In this document: positions 3,196 through 11,449 of the stretch, in pieces
Layout of the letters: each line of letters opens with the position of its first letter
Position numbering within the stretch: position 1 is the stretch's first letter
Assembly (NCBI RefSeq): GCF_014596745.1
Contig: NZ_JABTCF010000001.1
Span: forward strand, 186,001 to 250,000
Origin: Maribacter aquimaris
Lineage (GTDB): Bacteria; Bacteroidota; Bacteroidia; Flavobacteriales; Flavobacteriaceae
Direction: 5' to 3'
DNA: 64,000 bases
Position numbers and translations under genes: made by a program
Notes under the pieces: model-generated
The model's database searches: none
The model's input: the letters and a program-made list of their open reading frames with translations, nothing else
Told to the model about the DNA's origin: nothing

Positions 3196-3804
3196 TCAAC
3201 AACCACCCTCTGGTTTTCGTTTTTTCTTTTTCTTCACTGCTATAACCTTTTTGGGAGTTACCGGAGCCATTGTCTGCTCTCCCCCTGAATTTTCAGTATT
3301 ACCCTTGAAGATATCCAAATAATTGGGTACGGGCTTTTCCAAATCGAAATCTGTCACTAGAAACCGATTATCGACGAGCTGTGTGGTACTGTTCAGGATT
3401 TTTATATTATCATACCCCAATTGGTACAAGATCATCCAGGCACTGTTCGCCTCATTTTGATTTTTGCCATAAAAGACCACTGTTTTTCCCTTATTTGTTA
3501 AATCATCAAACCTTGCAATGCTTTCTGCTTCCAAAATATCCGCTGTAGGCATATTCAGGGCATTATCAATATGGCCCTTGGAATACTCGAACCTATCACG
3601 AATATCGATAAAGACGGAATTTGATGGGTCAACGTTGGAATAGTCGACCAAATAGTCTTGGGTGTTGACCATAGCCAAAGTTTCCCTGTTTGTTTTTTTA
3701 TAGACGTTTGTCGGTTTTTTAAAGGTCAATATTCCAATTAGGATGACCAAAATAAAAACCACGGTAGATATAGAGATATGTTTTGTTTTTTCCAATTCTT
3801 TCAT
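3196..3804 (-). CDS. Membrane-anchored rhodanese-like protein, catalytic Cys lost, C-terminal GGC tail (1)
   Basis: 202 residues. One membrane helix (about 11-28) anchors a rhodanese-like fold (about 48-150; landmark FIDIRDRFEYSKGHIDNA). The active-site loop that normally begins with the persulfide-forming Cys reads VVFYGKNQNEA, so that Cys is replaced by Gly. The only Cys in the whole protein is the final residue, at the end of KKKKRKPEGGC. The next gene encodes a second protein with the same tail and the same loss. I infer that the terminal Cys on a flexible basic arm is the working thiol, analogous in principle to the SoxY GGCGG arm. The fold should face the periplasm. Last gene of the 9381-to-3196 operon, 12 bp from its neighbour. 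The fold assignment is good; the carrier role is a hypothesis. Confidence 0.8.
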   Translation of the reverse strand: MKELEKTKHISISTVVFILVILIGILTFKKPTNVYKKTNRETLAMVNTQDYLVDYSNVDPSNSVFIDIRDRFEYSKGHIDNALNMPTADILEAESIARFDDLTNKGKTVVFYGKNQNEANSAWMILYQLGYDNIKILNSTTQLVDNRFLVTDFDLEKPVPNYLDIFKGNTENSGGEQTMAPVTPKKVIAVKKKKKRKPEGGC

Positions 3805-3816
3805 GACGATACAGTT

Positions 3817-4473
3817 TTAGCAACCTCCCTCTGGTTTTCTTTTTTTCTTTTTCACAATGGGAATGACGACTTTCTTCGGAGTCATATCCTGTTGTTCTAC
3901 TTGATTATGTTGTTTTATACCCACACCAAAATACATCGCGGCTGCCTTTCTGAAATCGTATAGTTCAAAAGCCTCCTTTGCCATATTTTCAGTCGGTTCA
4001 GGTGGATTAAGGATGGTGTTATACCATCCCTTGATACCTCCTTGGAGTACATGCAGGTTTTCATAATCCATTCTGGTCAATATCAACCAAGCTTGGTCTG
4101 CCTTAAAATCATCATTGGAAAACAATACAATATCATATTGACCTTGATTCAAATAGGCTTCATAATCCGCATTTAAGATCGCATCGAAAGGTATATTGAG
4201 GGCTCCTGTCAGGCTATATTCCGCGTATTCTTTTTCGTCCCGCAGATCGATCAGAAGAATCGATGGGTCTTTCGTAATGATCTTATGGGCCAAATCATCT
4301 GAGGTAACATAACGCTCAGGGTTGACTACTTTCGCCAAAAGGTCTTCCGCTGTAACACGTTCGTTTTTTTGATATGCCGGCAACAATAACAGACCTAAAG
4401 CTGCAATAAGGAGCAATGAAGCTAGGATGATATACCGATTAGCGAGAATTTTGGCCAGATTCCTATTGATCAT
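3817..4473 (-). CDS. Membrane-anchored rhodanese-like protein, catalytic Cys lost, C-terminal GGC tail (2)
   Basis: 218 residues. Membrane helix at about 12-33, then a rhodanese-like domain (about 55-152; LLIDLRDEKEYAEYSLTGAL and the HVLQGGIKGW motif). The catalytic loop reads VLFSNDDFKADQ with no Cys. After a short helical region comes a Pro/Lys linker (TPKKVVIPIV) and the tail KKKKRKPEGGC, whose last residue is the only Cys in the protein. Outside the tail and linker it is only distantly similar to its neighbour at 3196-3804, so the shared tail looks selected rather than a trace of a recent duplication. It lies 11 bp downstream of the YeeE gene in the same operon and probably handles periplasmic sulfur for the PsrABC-like complex or the permease. 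Confidence 0.8.
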   Translation of the reverse strand: MINRNLAKILANRYIILASLLLIAALGLLLLPAYQKNERVTAEDLLAKVVNPERYVTSDDLAHKIITKDPSILLIDLRDEKEYAEYSLTGALNIPFDAILNADYEAYLNQGQYDIVLFSNDDFKADQAWLILTRMDYENLHVLQGGIKGWYNTILNPPEPTENMAKEAFELYDFRKAAAMYFGVGIKQHNQVEQQDMTPKKVVIPIVKKKKRKPEGGC

Positions 4474-4484
4474 GATGCTTTATT

Positions 4485-5075
4485 TTAGTAAAATACTTTT
4501 TTAATCCGCTTTCTAACAATATCCGAAACAAAGAAGGCCACCAAGGCAATCAAGGTGACCCCAAAAATGATATAATTCGCTGGGATATCGAAACTATCCA
4601 CCAAAGTGATATTCCCTAAAAAAGAGCCATTATAAAGTCCTTCAAATACCCCATAGGCCTCTGAAAAAATGAATACCCCGACCATTATGCCAAAAACATA
4701 GACCCAAGCATCCAATTTCCCGATAGCGACGGCACACAGACTGGTACCCGGACAAAATCCGCCTGCGACGAAACCTACCCCCATAATGGCCCCTCCGATA
4801 ATCGCAGCCCATAAATAAGTGGGATGCACATATAACATGCTTATATCAACCCATCCCAGATAATCCATATAATACAAGCCGATCACCGAGACAACGGCAG
4901 CTGTGAAAAACACTTTCAGTACGGCAAAATCATATCCATAAAAAACACCTGCCAATTTCCGGGAAGAAGAAAATCCCGAAGCTTCCAAAATAAAGCCAAA
5001 GGCCAACCCGATCAGCACGGCGATAATGATGTTCCATTCATTTGTTAATATTCCATTAGGTATCAGAGGTCCCAT
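4485..5075 (-). CDS. YeeE/YedE half-size sulfur permease subunit with GGFCPGTS motif
   Basis: 196 residues with about five or six membrane helices. The YeeE/YedE (DUF395) signature VGFVAGGFCPGTSLCAVAIG lies at about 99-119, with Cys108 as the conserved permease Cys and an additional Cys114. Full-length members such as TsuA, which imports thiosulfate, are about 330-350 residues and contain two such halves. Here the two halves are separate adjacent genes (this one and 5099-5638), so a heterodimer is likely. In the family, conserved Cys residues pass thiosulfate or related sulfur species across the membrane by transient interaction. The role here is inferred from that precedent and from the rhodanese-like neighbours. 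Confidence 0.85.
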   Translation of the reverse strand: MGPLIPNGILTNEWNIIIAVLIGLAFGFILEASGFSSSRKLAGVFYGYDFAVLKVFFTAAVVSVIGLYYMDYLGWVDISMLYVHPTYLWAAIIGGAIMGVGFVAGGFCPGTSLCAVAIGKLDAWVYVFGIMVGVFIFSEAYGVFEGLYNGSFLGNITLVDSFDIPANYIIFGVTLIALVAFFVSDIVRKRIKKVFY

Positions 5076-5098: not shown

Positions 5099-5638
5099 CT
5101 ATATCCAATTTTTTCTAAAAAAGTATGCAAAAAGATATGCCGTTCCGAAGATGGCCAGCATAGTGATAAACCCACCGGTCGACAATACGGCCATACCACT
5201 CAAGGCCGCCCCACTGGTACAGCCTCTGGCAATCTGTGCCCCAAGTCCAAAGAGGATTCCACCGAACAAGGCAAAGACCAAACGTCTTCGTGAAGTGATC
5301 TTTGGGGAATGTTGTACCCTAAAACCCATACGACCCGATAGGGACCCTGAAATAAAGGCTCCGGCAAGGACACCAAGGCTTTCAAAAACCAACCAGGTGT
5401 TCATGGGTGATTCATCATCCTTAACGAATTTACTGTAATAGGCATTGTTGATGGTGTGCTCATGGGAAACCTTATCGACCAACGTAACAACACTACTTTT
5501 CATAGCACCGCTAGCCCCAAGGCCACGCCCCGTCATATAAAAAGTAAAGATGATCAAAAGTCCCAATAGGAAACCTCCGAAATAAGGATTCCAATATACG
5601 TGTCTGTTATTTTCACTTGATTTATCCATTACATGCAA
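5099..5638 (-). CDS. YeeE/YedE half-size sulfur permease subunit with RGCTSG motif
   Basis: 179 residues, about four membrane helices. The signature LGAQIARGCTSGAALSGMA (about 132-150), with Cys140, is the other half-signature of YeeE/YedE permeases. It precedes the gene for the matching half by 23 bp. Its start is either the ATG at 5638 or the one encoding MDKSSENN three codons later. It lies 3 bp downstream of the NrfD gene, so the six genes from 9381 to 3817 read as one unit. The long loop at about 50-80 should be extramembranous. Substrate probably thiosulfate, sulfite or another small sulfur species; which one cannot be seen. Confidence 0.85.
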   Translation of the reverse strand: MHVMDKSSENNRHVYWNPYFGGFLLGLLIIFTFYMTGRGLGASGAMKSSVVTLVDKVSHEHTINNAYYSKFVKDDESPMNTWLVFESLGVLAGAFISGSLSGRMGFRVQHSPKITSRRRLVFALFGGILFGLGAQIARGCTSGAALSGMAVLSTGGFITMLAIFGTAYLFAYFFRKNWI

Positions 5639-5641
5639 TTA

Positions 5642-6583
5642 TTAATATAGATAACGTGTTAATTGTCCCGCTTCCACCATAACAAATCGGAATACCAGTC
5701 CACCTATGAGGATGAGAATGGCGGGGACCACAACGGGAACCTTATAACCTTTCAACTCCAAAATTTCCAAAAGTCCGGGCAACAGCAAACCGAGAATAAC
5801 CACAAAAACAAAGAACATAACGGTAAATTCGCCATTGGTCAAGAGTTGCATGGCTTCCAATTGCACTTCAGAACCTGCCCAATATCCCATGATCATATGT
5901 ACGATAAGGGCCAATTCTATAACAATAAGGACAATATCAATCTTACTGAAAAGGCTTCTTTCACTTTTCGATTTTGAAAAAAGAATAATGGTAGCCGCTG
6001 CCGTCGAAAGTCCTGATACCAAGAACAGGGGACCTAAAATGGCGTTGTTCCATAATGGGCGTGCATTAAAGGCCGATAGCAGTATCCCGGTATATATCCC
6101 AAGTACTATGGAAAGGGGAATCAATACATACGCCATATTCATTCGATTTTTGACCACAAAGGCTTGGAATTTTTTCAAAAACCCGAATTTCAAATCCATT
6201 TTAGGGAAAACCTCCTTCCAATAACTAAAAACCCAAAGCATGGATAAAGGGGTAATAATAAGCAATACCCAAGCTCCCCAGGACATGGGGGATTCAATCC
6301 TAACGGTTGTATACAACTGCCAAAAAAATATTTTATGGGTAAGGTCATAAAACAAGGCCAATAGCCCAAGTACCAAGGCTATAGGTGCTATCATAACGGC
6401 ATACTTGACCGTGGCCGGGGTTTCCTCTTCTTTTTTAATAACGGTAAATACCGCTGCAAAAAATAAGAGTCCGGCTGCCAAGCCCCCTAAAAACAGATAA
6501 ACTGAAATCGGCCAGTGCCATATTTGCAACGATGGGTCGATGTTCGGTAGGTTTCTACCACTGGTGAATAGTTCTTCTTCCAT
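5642..6583 (-). CDS. NrfD/PsrC-type membrane subunit of a molybdenum oxidoreductase
   Basis: 313 residues with about eight membrane helices and the family opening WHWPISVYLFLGGLAAG. NrfD/PsrC proteins anchor periplasmic molybdopterin/iron-sulfur enzymes and exchange electrons with menaquinone. It follows the ferredoxin gene by 9 bp, giving the standard catalytic-ferredoxin-anchor order of polysulfide, thiosulfate and tetrathionate reductases and of SoeABC sulfite dehydrogenase. Direction of electron flow is not determined by the sequence. Confidence 0.9.
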   Translation of the reverse strand: MEEELFTSGRNLPNIDPSLQIWHWPISVYLFLGGLAAGLLFFAAVFTVIKKEEETPATVKYAVMIAPIALVLGLLALFYDLTHKIFFWQLYTTVRIESPMSWGAWVLLIITPLSMLWVFSYWKEVFPKMDLKFGFLKKFQAFVVKNRMNMAYVLIPLSIVLGIYTGILLSAFNARPLWNNAILGPLFLVSGLSTAAATIILFSKSKSERSLFSKIDIVLIVIELALIVHMIMGYWAGSEVQLEAMQLLTNGEFTVMFFVFVVILGLLLPGLLEILELKGYKVPVVVPAILILIGGLVFRFVMVEAGQLTRYLY

Positions 6584-6592
6584 TGTAAGGGT

Positions 6593-7126
6593 TTATATTA
6601 AATAATAAACATGGGGTTTTGTACCCGCTTCCGGCGCCAAGGTTTTATGCTTTCTGGCTTTGAGCAATTGCGACACTTCACTGTTCGGGTTATCCAAATC
6701 CCCAAAATACATGCATTTGGTAGGACAAACCGAAACACAGGCTGGAAGTTGGCCTTTCTCGAGCCTATGATGGCAAAAAGTACACTTGTCAACATAACCA
6801 TCAGGATGTTGGTATCTTGCATCATAAGGACATGATTCTATACATGCGCCACAACCAATACATTCATCGGGGGTCACCAAAACGATTCCTCCTTCAATAA
6901 TATGGCTTGCACCTGTAGGGCAGCAGCGTACACAGGGTGCATTCTCACAATGATTGCACCGCTCGGATCGCAATTCCAACTCAAGAATGGGATAGGCTCC
7001 TTCAACCCGTTCAGTAATCCAGTCCCTGCAATACCCAATAGGAACATTGTTCTCGGTTTGACACGCAACTACGCAGTCACTGCAACCTACACACTTTTTG
7101 GTGTCGATGACCATGGCATATCTCAT
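6593..7126 (-). CDS. Four-cluster [4Fe-4S] ferredoxin subunit (PsrB/NrfC type)
   Basis: 177 residues containing sixteen cluster Cys in four groups: 12/15/18/22, 57/60/65/69, 89/92/95/99 and 115/118/130/134. This is the full complement for four [4Fe-4S] clusters that wire the molybdenum subunit to the NrfD anchor. No signal peptide is present, as expected, because these subunits are co-exported with the Tat-tagged catalytic partner. Its start overlaps the end of the catalytic gene by 4 bp (ATGA), so translation is probably coupled. Confidence 0.93.
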   Translation of the reverse strand: MRYAMVIDTKKCVGCSDCVVACQTENNVPIGYCRDWITERVEGAYPILELELRSERCNHCENAPCVRCCPTGASHIIEGGIVLVTPDECIGCGACIESCPYDARYQHPDGYVDKCTFCHHRLEKGQLPACVSVCPTKCMYFGDLDNPNSEVSQLLKARKHKTLAPEAGTKPHVYYLI

Positions 7127-9381
7127 ACTTCTACAGTTTTAGATGGATTTTCAGTGAGTATCTTAACAAAGTTTCCACGCATTCCTGTTCCTCCCATAAT
7201 GGGATCAATGGCCACTTGACTGATCAATTGTGTATCACTGGCGCCCTTGCCATGTGCACGACCCAATTTTTTGTTGTTATGCCCAAAACCATGGACCATA
7301 TATACGGAATCCCATCGGATCCTCTCGGTAACACGAACCCGAATAGGAAATGAGGATTGGACCCCATCCTGATTCTCTAGCCAAACGTATTGTCCTTTCT
7401 TCAAACCAAGTATTCGAGCCACCTTTGGATTGACCCACAGGTCGTTCTCACTCTTTAAATCGTTGAGATTGGGGTTGTTTACCGTTCTACTGAAGGTATG
7501 CATGGGTGATCTACCATAATTCAATCGATAGTATCCCGGTGCAGGCTCTGGGTGTTTCGTATACTTGGGCATAGGGTTAAATCCCTCTCTTTCCAAAGCT
7601 GCCGAGTAGAACTCTATTTTACCACTATCGGTATAGAATTCATAATCCTGTCCTTCTTCCAAATACATAGGGCCAGACTTTCTTGGGAATTTTTTCACCC
7701 CTATTTTTTCCATTTCCTCCAAGGAGGTTCCCATTTGTTTCAATTGCCAAGCAATGACTTCTTTATAATCATCATATTTAAAATAGTCGTGCAGGCCCAG
7801 TTTTTCCCCCAATTGTTTGGCAATCCACCAAGCCGGTTTCGAATCGAATCTTGGTGGAACCGCGGGCATTCGCAAGGCAATGGAGGGTTCCCGATTGGTG
7901 GCTGATCGAATGCCATCATAACGTTCCAAATAGGTACATTCGGGCAAAACCACATCGGCATACCCAGTGATCTCCATAGGCATGGTATCTACGACCACCA
8001 TAAAATCCAACGCATTGATAGCCTCTTCCAATAACTTTTTGTTCGGAATGGAATTGTTCAAATTGGTGCCGGCCACCAACCATGCCTTTATAGGGTATGC
8101 ATTCTCCTCTGAAGGTAAAGAGGCCCTTATGAGCTCATTGGTAATGCCCATTTCTGCAAAAGGATATTTTTCACCAATTTCTTGCCAACCCCATTTTGGG
8201 GTAGGATAGGGGGGATGGGGAAACTTCGGAATACTTATTTTCTCCTTGAAGTAGAATCCGCCCCTACGGCCCCAAGAACCTAATAGTCCATTCAATATGG
8301 CCATAGCCCTTGCCCGTTGGGTATCGTCCCCATACCAAGTCACATGGCGTCCTGGATGTATTATGGTTGCAGGGGCGGCTGCGGCCATAATCCGTGCCGT
8401 TTTTCTGATTTCCTCAGGCTTTATTGTGGTAACACCATAGGCCCATTCTGGAGTGTACTCCTGTACGTGGTCTTTTAACTCCTCAAATCCCAGGGTATAC
8501 CTATCCACATATTCCTTATCATATAAATTCTCGTTTATTATGACATTCATCCAGGCGAGCAATAAGGCAATATCGGTAGAAGGCTTGATGGCCAACCAAT
8601 GTTGCGACTTACTTGCTGCCGTTGAAAGTCGCGGATCCACCGTGATAATGGTAGCACCACGATCAATGGCATCTGACATTTCCTGTACTTGGGTATTATG
8701 CATGTTCTCACCAATATGAGACCCTATCAATACCAGACATTTCGTGTCCCGTATATCGGTTGGTTCCGGTGAACCCACCCATGACCCAAAAGTTAGGCTA
8801 AAGCCTGCCTCCCTTGGCCCGCGACACTGTGCATATGCCGGCTCCGCTATACTTTCAGAGCCGAAAGCCTTGAATAAATGTTCAAAATGGGAGCCTGGGG
8901 ATCCATGTTTCAGTAATCCTAAACTCTCAGCACCGTATTCTTTCTTTATCCCCTTCATTTTTGTTGCGATCAAGGTCAATGCCTCATCCCAATCCGTTTC
9001 CACAAAAGTTTCCTCACCATCGATAACCTTTCGCACTAAGGGTTTCCTTAAACGATCGTTGTCGGTATACATACCAACACCACCAGTTCCGCGGGGACAT
9101 AGCCTTCCGTTGCAATGGGGGTCAATATCGTTACCTATGATTTTATGAATGGTACCCTTACTGTCAGCATGCACCCATCCGGCACATTTCCAAAAGCATA
9201 CCTCACAATAGGTTGCAGTCTGTCTTAATTTTTCAAGGGAATCCTCCAATGCAAATCCCTCTAAATAGGAATTTACACCCATGGATTCCAATGACGTAGC
9301 CGCAACAGCTACACCTCCAAAACCTAATGCGGAAATCTTAATAAATTTTCTTCTTGACGTACCCATAGACTTTTTAATCAA
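7123..9381 (-). CDS. Tat-exported molybdopterin oxidoreductase, PsrA/PhsA-like
   Basis: 752 residues. The N-terminus carries a twin-arginine signal (SRRKFIK at 9-15, followed by a hydrophobic stretch), placing it in the periplasm; this argues against the cytoplasmic SoeA type. Cys59, 62, 66 and 95 bind the proximal [4Fe-4S] cluster. Cys186 in AQCRGPREA is the probable molybdenum ligand. The rest is the usual bis-MGD fold, ending with the cofactor-capping domain (DLWVNPKVARILGLKKGQ). The family reduces or oxidises sulfur oxyanions, polysulfide or arsenicals. Adjacent sulfur genes favour thiosulfate, tetrathionate or polysulfide; an arsenic enzyme cannot be excluded. First gene of the operon, behind an unusual palindrome-rich regulatory region (9391-9492). 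Confidence 0.9.
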   Translation of the reverse strand: MIKKSMGTSRRKFIKISALGFGGVAVAATSLESMGVNSYLEGFALEDSLEKLRQTATYCEVCFWKCAGWVHADSKGTIHKIIGNDIDPHCNGRLCPRGTGGVGMYTDNDRLRKPLVRKVIDGEETFVETDWDEALTLIATKMKGIKKEYGAESLGLLKHGSPGSHFEHLFKAFGSESIAEPAYAQCRGPREAGFSLTFGSWVGSPEPTDIRDTKCLVLIGSHIGENMHNTQVQEMSDAIDRGATIITVDPRLSTAASKSQHWLAIKPSTDIALLLAWMNVIINENLYDKEYVDRYTLGFEELKDHVQEYTPEWAYGVTTIKPEEIRKTARIMAAAAPATIIHPGRHVTWYGDDTQRARAMAILNGLLGSWGRRGGFYFKEKISIPKFPHPPYPTPKWGWQEIGEKYPFAEMGITNELIRASLPSEENAYPIKAWLVAGTNLNNSIPNKKLLEEAINALDFMVVVDTMPMEITGYADVVLPECTYLERYDGIRSATNREPSIALRMPAVPPRFDSKPAWWIAKQLGEKLGLHDYFKYDDYKEVIAWQLKQMGTSLEEMEKIGVKKFPRKSGPMYLEEGQDYEFYTDSGKIEFYSAALEREGFNPMPKYTKHPEPAPGYYRLNYGRSPMHTFSRTVNNPNLNDLKSENDLWVNPKVARILGLKKGQYVWLENQDGVQSSFPIRVRVTERIRWDSVYMVHGFGHNNKKLGRAHGKGASDTQLISQVAIDPIMGGTGMRGNFVKILTENPSKTVEV

Positions 9382-9550: not shown

Positions 9551-11449
9551 ATGAAGAAGAATGCATTTGGGAATATAAAAAAAGTTGCCGTTGCATTATT
9601 GATCTTGATGGTGTTGGGTGCCCTAATTTTCATAAAATATTGGGGCTTTGGAAACATAGGGAGTGCGGCACCTTCAGAGTATGTTGATATCTCACCTACT
9701 TCAGAGAGTTGTCTGCAATGCCACTCCAATACGAGTGGTTTTTCTGATTATCACAATCCTGAATTCATAGGTTGTATGAGTTGCCATCTGGGTAATGGGA
9801 AGGAATCGGACAAGAACAAATCACATGAGGGAATGGTACTTATCCCCGGTAACCTCAGTAACGCCTCCGAAACCTGTGGAAAATGCCATCCGAATGAATT
9901 GTCAAAAATAAAGGTCTCCCTAATGACAACGAATAGTGGTATCGTGGCCGTGGATAAATATATTTTTGGCGAAGCTGAAACCCCTAATGACCATTACCAT
10001 ATAAAAGATATAAAGCATACCGCCTCTGAAAAACACTTGCGGGACCTATGTGCCAATTGTCATTTGGGGGCAGACAAAACGGAGTTCGGGAAAATTACCC
10101 AATTGAGTCGTGGTGGTGGCTGTATCGCGTGTCATTTGAACTATACCAAGGAGGCCCATAACGAATTGACCCAATATCTCGATTCCAATAATAAAACGAT
10201 TCCAAAGACCCATCCCTCTGCCGACATCTTCGTGAATGACCTTCACTGCTTTGGATGCCATAGTCGATCCAGTCGAATATCAACCAATTATGAAGGTTGG
10301 CAAGAAACCCTATTGGATGAAGAGGATGTCCAAAATAAACCGAATTATCGGGTTATGGAAGATTTGAGGGTTTATGCCAAAAAGGAGGCCGATGTACACC
10401 ATACCAACAATATGCTATGTGTTGATTGTCATTCCAGCCATGAAGTAATGGGTAATGGCATATCCTATGCCCATGAGGAACAAGCGGTTACCTTGAAGTG
10501 TTCCGATTGTCATTATAAGGAAAAACCACAAACAATCCCCTATGATTCCCTTGATCAAGAATCCCTACTGGTTTTTATGCACAGGAAATACACCCATACC
10601 GATAAACCCATACTGGTAGCCGAAAATGACGGTCACCCTTTGGTTAATTCGTATATGGAGGGTGACCAAGCCTATTTGGTCGGCAAAAAAGATGGTAGGC
10701 TCCATAAGATAAAACCGCAATCTGAAAGCTGTTCACGGGATAGTGCCCACAAGAATGTCAGTTGCGCTACATGTCATTCGTCCTGGACCAACAAATGTAT
10801 TGGTTGTCATAATGTATTTGATAAAAAAGACCCTAACGGATTTGACTTGCTCGATAAAACAAATGTCACCGGGCAATGGGTAGAGCATGTCGCGGAATTT
10901 TTGACTTCATACCCCACATTGGGGGTTAGGGAATCCGAGGATGGTAAAAGGTACGAGCCAGCCATCCCTGGAATGATCATGACCCTTGATAAGGGGAGTT
11001 TCGAATCGGATCGGGCAGGGGAGGATGTTTCCTTTCATCGCCTATATGCCCCAAATTCGCCACATACAACCACAAAGTCCGTCAGGGACTGTAAATCGTG
11101 CCATTCAAACCCCACAGCCTTAGGCTATGGAAATGGGAAATTGATATATAACACATCGACAGGCAAGGGTCAATGGGAATTTACACCGGAATATGCCATG
11201 AATCCCAATGATAATTTACCCGAAGATGCTTGGATTGGTTTTATGAATTCCCGGAATCAAGATAAGGTCAATACCACCCGGACCGATTTTAGACCCTTGT
11301 CCATCAAGGAACAAAAACGGATGCTATTGGTCGGGGCTTGTTTACAATGCCACTCCGATAATTCCAAGGTAATGCGGCAAAGTCTGGGGAATTTCCAGTA
11401 TCTCCTCGATAATATGGATGCGCGTTGCATACGACCGAACAATCCTTAA
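9551..11449 (+). CDS. Membrane-anchored dodecahaem cytochrome c
   Basis: 632 residues. A membrane helix at about 11-30 acts as an uncleaved anchor, and the remainder should be periplasmic. Twelve CxxCH motifs are present, reading in order CLQCH, CMSCH, CGKCH, CANCH, CIACH, CFGCH, CVDCH, CSDCH, CATCH, CIGCH, CKSCH and CLQCH. Motif spacing resembles the octahaem tetrathionate reductase/hydroxylamine oxidoreductase-like multihaem families, but I cannot place it in a named one. It is the only gene transcribed away from the molybdenum operon, with which it shares the regulatory gap. It probably exchanges electrons with that complex or the quinone pool. It might instead be a sulfur or nitrogen oxyanion enzyme. 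Confidence 0.9.
   Translation: MKKNAFGNIKKVAVALLILMVLGALIFIKYWGFGNIGSAAPSEYVDISPTSESCLQCHSNTSGFSDYHNPEFIGCMSCHLGNGKESDKNKSHEGMVLIPGNLSNASETCGKCHPNELSKIKVSLMTTNSGIVAVDKYIFGEAETPNDHYHIKDIKHTASEKHLRDLCANCHLGADKTEFGKITQLSRGGGCIACHLNYTKEAHNELTQYLDSNNKTIPKTHPSADIFVNDLHCFGCHSRSSRISTNYEGWQETLLDEEDVQNKPNYRVMEDLRVYAKKEADVHHTNNMLCVDCHSSHEVMGNGISYAHEEQAVTLKCSDCHYKEKPQTIPYDSLDQESLLVFMHRKYTHTDKPILVAENDGHPLVNSYMEGDQAYLVGKKDGRLHKIKPQSESCSRDSAHKNVSCATCHSSWTNKCIGCHNVFDKKDPNGFDLLDKTNVTGQWVEHVAEFLTSYPTLGVRESEDGKRYEPAIPGMIMTLDKGSFESDRAGEDVSFHRLYAPNSPHTTTKSVRDCKSCHSNPTALGYGNGKLIYNTSTGKGQWEFTPEYAMNPNDNLPEDAWIGFMNSRNQDKVNTTRTDFRPLSIKEQKRMLLVGACLQCHSDNSKVMRQSLGNFQYLLDNMDARCIRPNNP

Follow-up and report, generated by a model that had tools for sequence, protein, structure and literature searches.

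A minus-strand operon within a 64,000-nucleotide stretch of the Maribacter aquimaris genome (contig NZ_JABTCF010000001.1, positions 186,001 to 250,000; the window) encodes, in order, a molybdopterin subunit, an Fe-S subunit, an NrfD subunit, the half transporters YeeE1 and YeeE2, and two rhodanese-like proteins, here termed R1 and R2 (Table 1). Both rhodanese genes lie at the positions assigned to them in an earlier sequence-only reading of this DNA, and both products match Pfam Rhodanese (PF00581) above its cut-off (R1, 2.8e-13; R2, 1.7e-15). That reading had described two proteins that have lost the catalytic-loop Cys and share one C-terminal tail, and both statements were borne out, with Ser119 in R1 and Gly113 in R2 at the catalytic position and the final 11 residues of the two proteins identical. 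The final residue is also the single Cys of each protein. The presence of molybdopterin, Fe-S and NrfD subunits in one operon places the accompanying enzyme, from sequence, in the Psr/Phs type of reductase, and the two Sulf_transp halves, with one relay Cys each, constitute a split YeeE of the PmpAB kind.

Table 1. Positions of R1, R2, their sequence features and the neighbouring genes in the window
Feature	Positions	Strand	Details
R1: N-terminal membrane helix, rhodanese fold without catalytic Cys, Cys-terminated basic tail	3817..4473	minus	218 amino acids
R2: N-terminal membrane helix, rhodanese fold without catalytic Cys, Cys-terminated tail same as R1	3196..3804	minus	202 amino acids
R1 tail KKKKRKPEGGC	3820..3852	minus	last 11 codons ahead of stop
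R2 tail KKKKRKPEGGC	3199..3231	minus	last 11 codons ahead of stop
R1 catalytic-loop position VLFSNDD	4108..4128	minus	Ser119 in place of the Cys of active rhodaneses
R2 catalytic-loop position VVFYGKNQ	3457..3480	minus	Gly113 in place of the Cys of active rhodaneses
R1 membrane helix (predicted), residues 15-33	4375..4431	minus	hydropathy and charge
YeeE2, half transporter, PmpB-like N-terminal half, relay Cys in CPGT	4485..5075	minus	Pfam Sulf_transp profile positions 7-149
YeeE1, half transporter, PmpA-like C-terminal half, relay Cys in RGCTSG	5099..5638	minus	Pfam Sulf_transp profile positions 176-309
NrfD/PsrC-type membrane subunit	5642..6583	minus	PF03916, 3.1e-50
Fe-S subunit, PsrB/PhsB type	6593..7126	minus	PF13247, 9.6e-24, and other 4Fe-4S models
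Molybdopterin catalytic subunit, Tat-like leader (by eye)	7123..9381	minus	best NCBIfam model thiosulfate reductase PhsA, 464.6 bits, under its 694-bit cut-off
12-heme cytochrome, ExtM-like, divergently transcribed	9551..11449	plus	238.4 bits, under 800-bit cut-off

Rhodanese domains occur in 12 proteins of the same genome (14 domain matches), among which R1 and R2 alone are Cys-terminal. The invariant columns in an alignment of 53 R1 proteins are P70, D76, R78, W129, G146, G217 and C218, and those in an alignment of 47 R2 proteins are only D67 and R69, which are rhodanese-fold residues, together with G201 and C202, the Gly-Cys of the tail. Chance, or an oddity of a single genome, was ruled out as the origin of the terminal Cys by this genome control and by its retention in nearly all relatives. 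Plasmid relatives amounted to four records with 43-53% query coverage and 25-30% identity, two of them named rhodanese-like, one MoeZ and one carrying no annotation.

Relatives were gathered by scanning named GTDB genomes with an alignment of the YeeE1 half and keeping the best 80 of at least 572 as loci (numbered with the prefix L); the loci were picked by YeeE1, and hence without selection on the tail. R1 (at least 85 bits) is held by 75 of the 80 loci and is complete in 74, and all 74 complete R1 proteins end in Cys (70 in GGC, 4 in EGC), as do 65 of the 67 complete R2 proteins (68 R2 in all). Six of the 80 loci are truncated, L117, L141, L159, L170 and L189 ending ahead of R1 and L174 being cut within it. 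R1 is present with no counted R2 in L146, L148, L173, L174, L179, L187 and L192; the contig ends at the R2 place in L146, L148 and L174, and the R2 gene is interrupted in L173. Matches below 85 bits were left out of this count, namely the L173 R2, which is in two pieces, and the R1 proteins of L106-L112, seven of 40 Bacteroidota loci, whose R1 is included in the census described below. The sequence-only reading had named homologues lacking the tail as evidence against its proposal; none of the 74 complete R1 proteins lacks the Cys, but two of the 67 complete R2 proteins do. In one of these, from L135, a break in the linker leaves the letters of the tail out of frame; the other, from L134, is considered further below.

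A census of 395 Bacteroidota genomes with the YeeE1 profile returned 69 places in 65 genomes, 67 of them strong. Two weak places (E about 1e-18; L277 and L278), which hold a different pair and at which no rhodanese was found within 2.5 kb, were left out, and genome G388 (locus L073), lacking a YeeE1 match, lies outside the 67. The rhodanese following YeeE1 is Cys-tipped at 66 of the 67 strong places, the Cys being the last residue in 57 and the second to last in 9, and at the single exception, L105, the frame is broken and an EGC tail stands in another frame. In Candidatus Neomarinimicrobiota, the phylum of genome G486, a match was present in 35 of 149 genomes, and R1 is Cys-terminal in 26 of the 26 loci read (GGC in 25, GSC in L231). 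The system is thus spread over Bacteroidota and into a second phylum. The residues ahead of the Cys vary widely among relatives (KKKKREGC, KRVLGGC, VRMGC, GGCG, GGCS and GGLCS, for example), and the Cys stays. Selenocysteine encoded by TGA at the tip was considered and rejected: among the complete proteins counted, only those of L105, L134 and L135 lack Cys, and none of these has Gly-Gly ahead of the stop codon.

Loss of the catalytic Cys is also general. Among distinct sequences (116 R1 and 76 R2, from 121 and 81 rows before duplicate genomes were removed), no R2 has Cys at the catalytic position, and its retention, which had likewise been named in advance as counting against the proposal, is confined to two R1 proteins. 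The assertion that no other Cys occurs was correct for R1 and R2 of the window and did not extend to the family, since 41 of the 116 distinct R1 proteins have a Cys at the column of residue 132. Because other Cys are frequent in homologues, the tip is the only near-universal Cys and not always the sole one. In the R2 gene of a Prolixibacteraceae metagenome-assembled genome (L173:12265-12267), an in-frame TGA occupies the catalytic-loop position, at which the close relative L185 has GGA (Gly); this TGA may represent an error, decay or selenocysteine.

The two halves of YeeE have their counterparts in PmpA and PmpB, each with one conserved Cys (PMC11582611). These correspond to C293 and C91, the first and second relay Cys of YeeE, and C22 of YeeE, the third, adjoins the 'fourth' Cys, that of YeeD (PMC11582611, PMC11073785). 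Both relay Cys are present in the split transporter encoded here and are kept in 119 of 120 aligned homologues for YeeE1 (RGCTSG) and in 119 of 119 for YeeE2 (CPGT). The enzymes encoded beside this transporter are more diverse. In stretches fetched around the 67 census places, partner enzymes were assigned by BLAST against one reference of each kind, giving a Psr/Phs-type reductase at 26, an octaheme cytochrome at 35 and a thiosulfate-sulfurtransferase-like protein at 5, with one contig too short. Scans of three of the octaheme proteins gave scores of 590, 569 and 577 bits against TIGR04315, the model for octaheme cytochromes of the tetrathionate reductase family (cut-off 375), and a b561-type cytochrome stands beside these three. 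Fusion of R1 to YeeE2 is the rule beside the octaheme cytochrome, where 34 of 35 places have it and only L110 does not; it occurs once among the 26 places of the Psr type (L092) and is absent from the 5 with a sulfurtransferase-like protein. The mean net charge of the 24 residues ahead of the Cys is +5.1 at Psr-type places (27 proteins, two of them R2), +4.4 at octaheme-type places (35) and +3.4 at sulfurtransferase-like places (5); the lowest octaheme value is -1, indicating that a strong charge is not essential.

No close homologue of the molybdopterin subunit of the window was detected in 12 of 12 octaheme-type genomes (E <= 1e-40, with G388 as the positive and distant molybdoenzymes outside the test), and since these genomes keep the Cys, the Cys is independent of that enzyme. 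The flavobacterial genome G388, in turn, keeps Psr, R1, R2 and the tails. The tails therefore persist without Psr, or without a YeeE1 that could be found, so that neither partner alone explains the Cys, which belongs to the rhodanese protein itself. The sequence-only reading had suggested looking for co-occurrence of such rhodaneses with YeeE and Psr genes; a Cys-tipped rhodanese follows YeeE1 at 66 of the 67 census places, and Psr is present at 26 of the 67, YeeE rather than Psr being the more constant partner of R1 and R2. The octaheme arrangement is a recurrent Bacteroidota cluster (L095:9665-13634 and 34 further octaheme-type places) of octaheme cytochrome, YeeE1 and Cys-tailed rhodanese, and in the loci listed a b561-type cytochrome gene lies between its members.

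We also compared R1 and R2 with each other in 71 distinct pairs, all Cys-ended, with GGCG pairs (L042, L043) and pairs having a broken or tailless R2 outside the set. The bodies are indeed distantly related, as had been claimed for the window, with a mean identity of 26% (range 20-34%), whereas the 11-residue tail is identical in 34 of the 71 pairs. Over residues -11 to -4, tail identity is 6.61/8 within a locus compared to 3.85/8 between loci, a value that none of 10000 permutations reached, and the tail of R1 is nearer to that of its own R2 (6.61/8) than to that of the nearest other R1 (5.86/8), whose body averages 75% identity. The linker ahead of the tail follows the same trend more weakly (5.35 versus 3.24 of 13). 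In the family of L042 and L043, R2 and a third protein share the tail KKKAVSGGCG, which is close in form to that of SoxY, and both have lipobox-like N-termini (by eye); the third protein, a tandem rhodanese, does have Cys in its catalytic loops.

The AlphaFold2 model of R2 (mean predicted local distance difference test score, pLDDT, 83) consists of an N-terminal helix (residues 2-27), a confident rhodanese core and a tail of low confidence from about residue 161, with block-mean pLDDT of 43-65 over residues 161-202, suggesting that the tail is disordered or flexible. Three positive charges precede the helix of R1 (residues 15-33), and hydropathy and charge together predict a periplasmic location for its domain and tail; the charges flanking the helix of R2 favor neither side. 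In the fused proteins, an extra helix after YeeE2 leads into the rhodanese.

Based on these observations, R1 and R2 are probably periplasmic sulfur carriers in which a SoxY-like arm has been built on an unrelated fold and which exchange sulfur with YeeE. R1 and R2 would be anchored by the N-terminal helix, or, elsewhere, R1 by fusion to the YeeE2 half; the rhodanese fold, devoid of its catalytic Cys, may provide a platform for docking partners; and a flexible arm of about 30-40 residues, mostly rich in Lys and Arg, would bear the working thiol at its tip. The tip Cys could take up a persulfide, polysulfide or thiosulfonate made or consumed by the periplasmic enzyme, whether a Psr/Phs-type molybdoenzyme, an octaheme cytochrome or a sulfurtransferase, and exchange sulfur with the first relay Cys of the YeeE pair, so that the tip of R1 would act as a periplasmic 'cysteine zero' opposite the 'fourth cysteine' of YeeD. 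The basic arm may help to steer anionic sulfur species. The sequence-only reading had proposed a membrane-tethered swinging arm on a dead rhodanese. The invariant tip Cys, the predicted disordered tail, the predicted anchor and the retention of the Cys when the enzyme changes all agree with that proposal, and the carriage of sulfur is its conjectural part.

Several known systems resemble this arrangement. SoxYZ is a periplasmic two-protein carrier whose working Cys lies close to the tip of a flexible, Gly-rich arm at the C-terminus (GGCGG), and in some organisms a YeeE-type transporter is encoded nearby (PMC6067878, PMC11582611). The passage of sulfur from the SoxY Cys along the Cys of a YeeE-like channel has been considered conceivable for SoxT (PMC11582611), and this is the nearest published idea that we encountered. 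R1 and R2 resemble SoxYZ/SoxT in their predicted periplasmic location, C-terminal Cys arm, pairing and nearby YeeE-type transporter genes. However, they have a rhodanese fold, with Rhodanese the only Pfam match above cut-off, no NCBIfam model above cut-off and no SoxY match; none of the 116 distinct R1 or 76 distinct R2 proteins ends in GGCGG; the arm is mostly Lys/Arg-rich with the Cys at the final or penultimate position; the proteins are predicted to be membrane-anchored or transporter-fused; and their partners are Psr/Phs, octaheme cytochrome or sulfurtransferase-like proteins in place of SoxXA/SoxB. The analogy with SoxY drawn in the sequence-only reading thus holds for a Gly-Gly-Cys arm near the C-terminus but not for the SoxY domain or a terminal GGCGG.

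In YeeE-YeeD (TsuA-TsuB), the lone reactive Cys of the small partner forms one step of the YeeE Cys relay, and natural YeeD-YeeE fusions exist (PMC11073785). R1 is similar in having one Cys proposed to serve YeeE and in its natural fusion with YeeE. YeeD differs in being a cytoplasmic protein of the TusA fold, whereas R1 is predicted to be periplasmic, has a rhodanese fold and bears its Cys on an arm; no TusA domain was matched by Pfam in R1 or R2. R1 and R2 would therefore appear to work like SoxY and YeeD while belonging to neither.

The R1 profile also finds PDB 1qxn (E 4.6e-4), listed as 'sulfide dehydrogenase', which we take to be Sud, the polysulfide-sulfur transferase of Wolinella. Sud is a rhodanese-fold protein that serves a Psr-type reductase and works with a catalytic-loop Cys. 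The fold and Psr context are common to both, but R1 and R2 have Ser or Gly at the catalytic position, the Cys on the tail and a predicted membrane helix. DsrC/TusE resembles R1 and R2 in the placement of the thiol, its sulfur being borne by a Cys on a flexible arm close to the C-terminus; it is cytoplasmic, however, with a different fold and a conserved C-terminal segment of another sequence, while R1 and R2 are predicted to be periplasmic and have a rhodanese fold. By fold (PF00581 and the confident core of the R2 model) R1 and R2 group with the rhodanese sulfurtransferases, but the catalytic-loop Cys that defines these enzymes is missing. With the C-terminal swinging-arm carriers they share a conserved Cys near the end of an arm that low model confidence predicts to be flexible. 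Literature searches, which covered titles and abstract openings in an open-access library and neither subscription papers nor preprints, showed no description of such a tail, and the most direct of them gave no hit.

Several observations weigh against a role for R1 and R2 as carriers coupled to YeeE. No YeeE1 match was obtained in G388 (E <= 1e-5, a search with no positive of its own, using a profile that works in the census), and since this genome has the tails all the same, YeeE is not obligatory. Nine of 12 genomes, that of the window included, gave no match to the TusA/YeeD family (E <= 0.001), so that the known cytoplasmic acceptor is missing there and simple import is not demonstrated; in such genomes there may be another cytoplasmic acceptor or a different flow, with sulfur held at the membrane for the periplasmic enzyme, for example. 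Two of the 116 distinct R1 proteins (L088 and L091) have a catalytic-position Cys in addition to the tail Cys, a Cys stands one column ahead of that position in one R1 and one R2, and the R2 of L134 has no tail. The predicted topology derives from hydropathy, charge and one model. Finally, tail codons of R1 and R2 that encode the same residue agree at 381 of 606 positions (0.629), more often than the codon usage of these genes would predict (0.548). Recent gene conversion as the sole cause of the matching was rejected, given that the codons differ at the other 225 of these 606 positions; protein-level selection is the simpler reading of the matching tails, and gene conversion may contribute.

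The terminal Cys could alternatively be a thiol-redox or tethering residue whose disulfide partner is YeeE, the enzyme or the other member of the R1/R2 pair and which thereby holds or gates a complex. Mixed disulfides would be within reach of a lone Cys exposed on a flexible arm, the tails of R1 and R2 match within a locus, and the frequent fusion of R1 to YeeE makes an assembly role conceivable. However, a fixed disulfide needs no long mobile arm, the Cys is kept in the R1-YeeE2 fusions, in which a tether to YeeE would be redundant, and at most Psr-type places outside flavobacteria only one rhodanese lies within 2.5 kb after YeeE1; on balance we regard tethering as unlikely. Less probable again is that the tail binds a metal or a chalcogen oxyanion or product (Se, Te) and that the system acts in selenite/tellurite reduction or metal handling like the ext cluster of Geobacter. 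Of the 80 YeeE1-chosen loci, 60 have ExtM-like cytochrome genes and 22 have ExtI-like porin genes, and ExtI matters for selenite/tellurite conversion in Geobacter (PMC5877670), but the ExtM and ExtI matches that were scanned score under the family cut-offs, neither Ext gene was seen in the stretches fetched for the 35 octaheme-type and 5 sulfurtransferase-type places, which keep the Cys, and the constant neighbours are sulfur proteins.

We see somewhat less merit still in a tail that is purely a signal for recognition or sorting, read by a receptor, protease or secretion system, with the Cys processed or lipidated. The tail is short, lies at the extreme C-terminus and is identical in 34 of 71 pairs, and tails drift together within a genome, but the residues ahead of the Cys vary widely while the Cys stays, an N-terminal anchor is already present, and the tail is neither hydrophobic nor a folded domain. 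The least probable alternative is that R1 and R2 are sulfane-sulfur sensors or regulatory partners of YeeE rather than bulk carriers, for although one YeeE-like protein, SoxT1B, acts in signal transduction (PMC11582611) and 9 of 12 genomes gave no TusA match, the genes lie in operons of complete respiratory enzymes, and a Crp-type gene was noticed beside some flavobacterial loci only, regulators at other loci not having been searched for.

Whether R1, R2 and their relatives, from Bacteroidota and at least one further phylum, form a class of periplasmic sulfur carriers in their own right, namely dead rhodaneses serving as thiol-tipped arms that are coupled to, and often fused with, a split YeeE and provide a covalent relay into three unrelated periplasmic enzymes (Psr/Phs, the octaheme tetrathionate-reductase-type cytochrome and a sulfurtransferase), is in our estimation evenly balanced. 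The question bears on how YeeE-type channels obtain sulfur from outside, and the natural fusion of a Cys-tipped arm to a half channel makes a SoxY-style hand-over testable with two small proteins. If carriage is confirmed, the swinging-arm solution would have arisen on another fold too, and the octaheme tetrathionate-reductase-type gene cluster that recurs across Bacteroidota would acquire a role.

Some further features of the neighbourhoods were noted. The 12-heme cytochrome encoded divergently in the window resembles ExtM of the Geobacter selenite/tellurite cluster, the same protein whose relatives are encoded in 60 of the 80 YeeE1-chosen loci. In L033:10369-14235, L040:10497-14344 and L041:10873-14818, the genes after R2 encode two tandem rhodaneses, a porin and a Crp-type regulator, none of which adjoins R2 in the window; the L033 porin is ExtI-like, under cut-off, and the two porins read, those of L033 and L040, have a GGGCG stretch in common. 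Downstream of the tailless R2 of L134 (L134:11919-13885), a tandem rhodanese gene encodes a protein ending in EGGC, as if the tail had moved between proteins. Tandem rhodaneses with catalytic-loop Cys (the loop was read in L038) and ending in PGCD were also observed in L125:12755-13777, L133:9776-10798 and L038:7789-8811.

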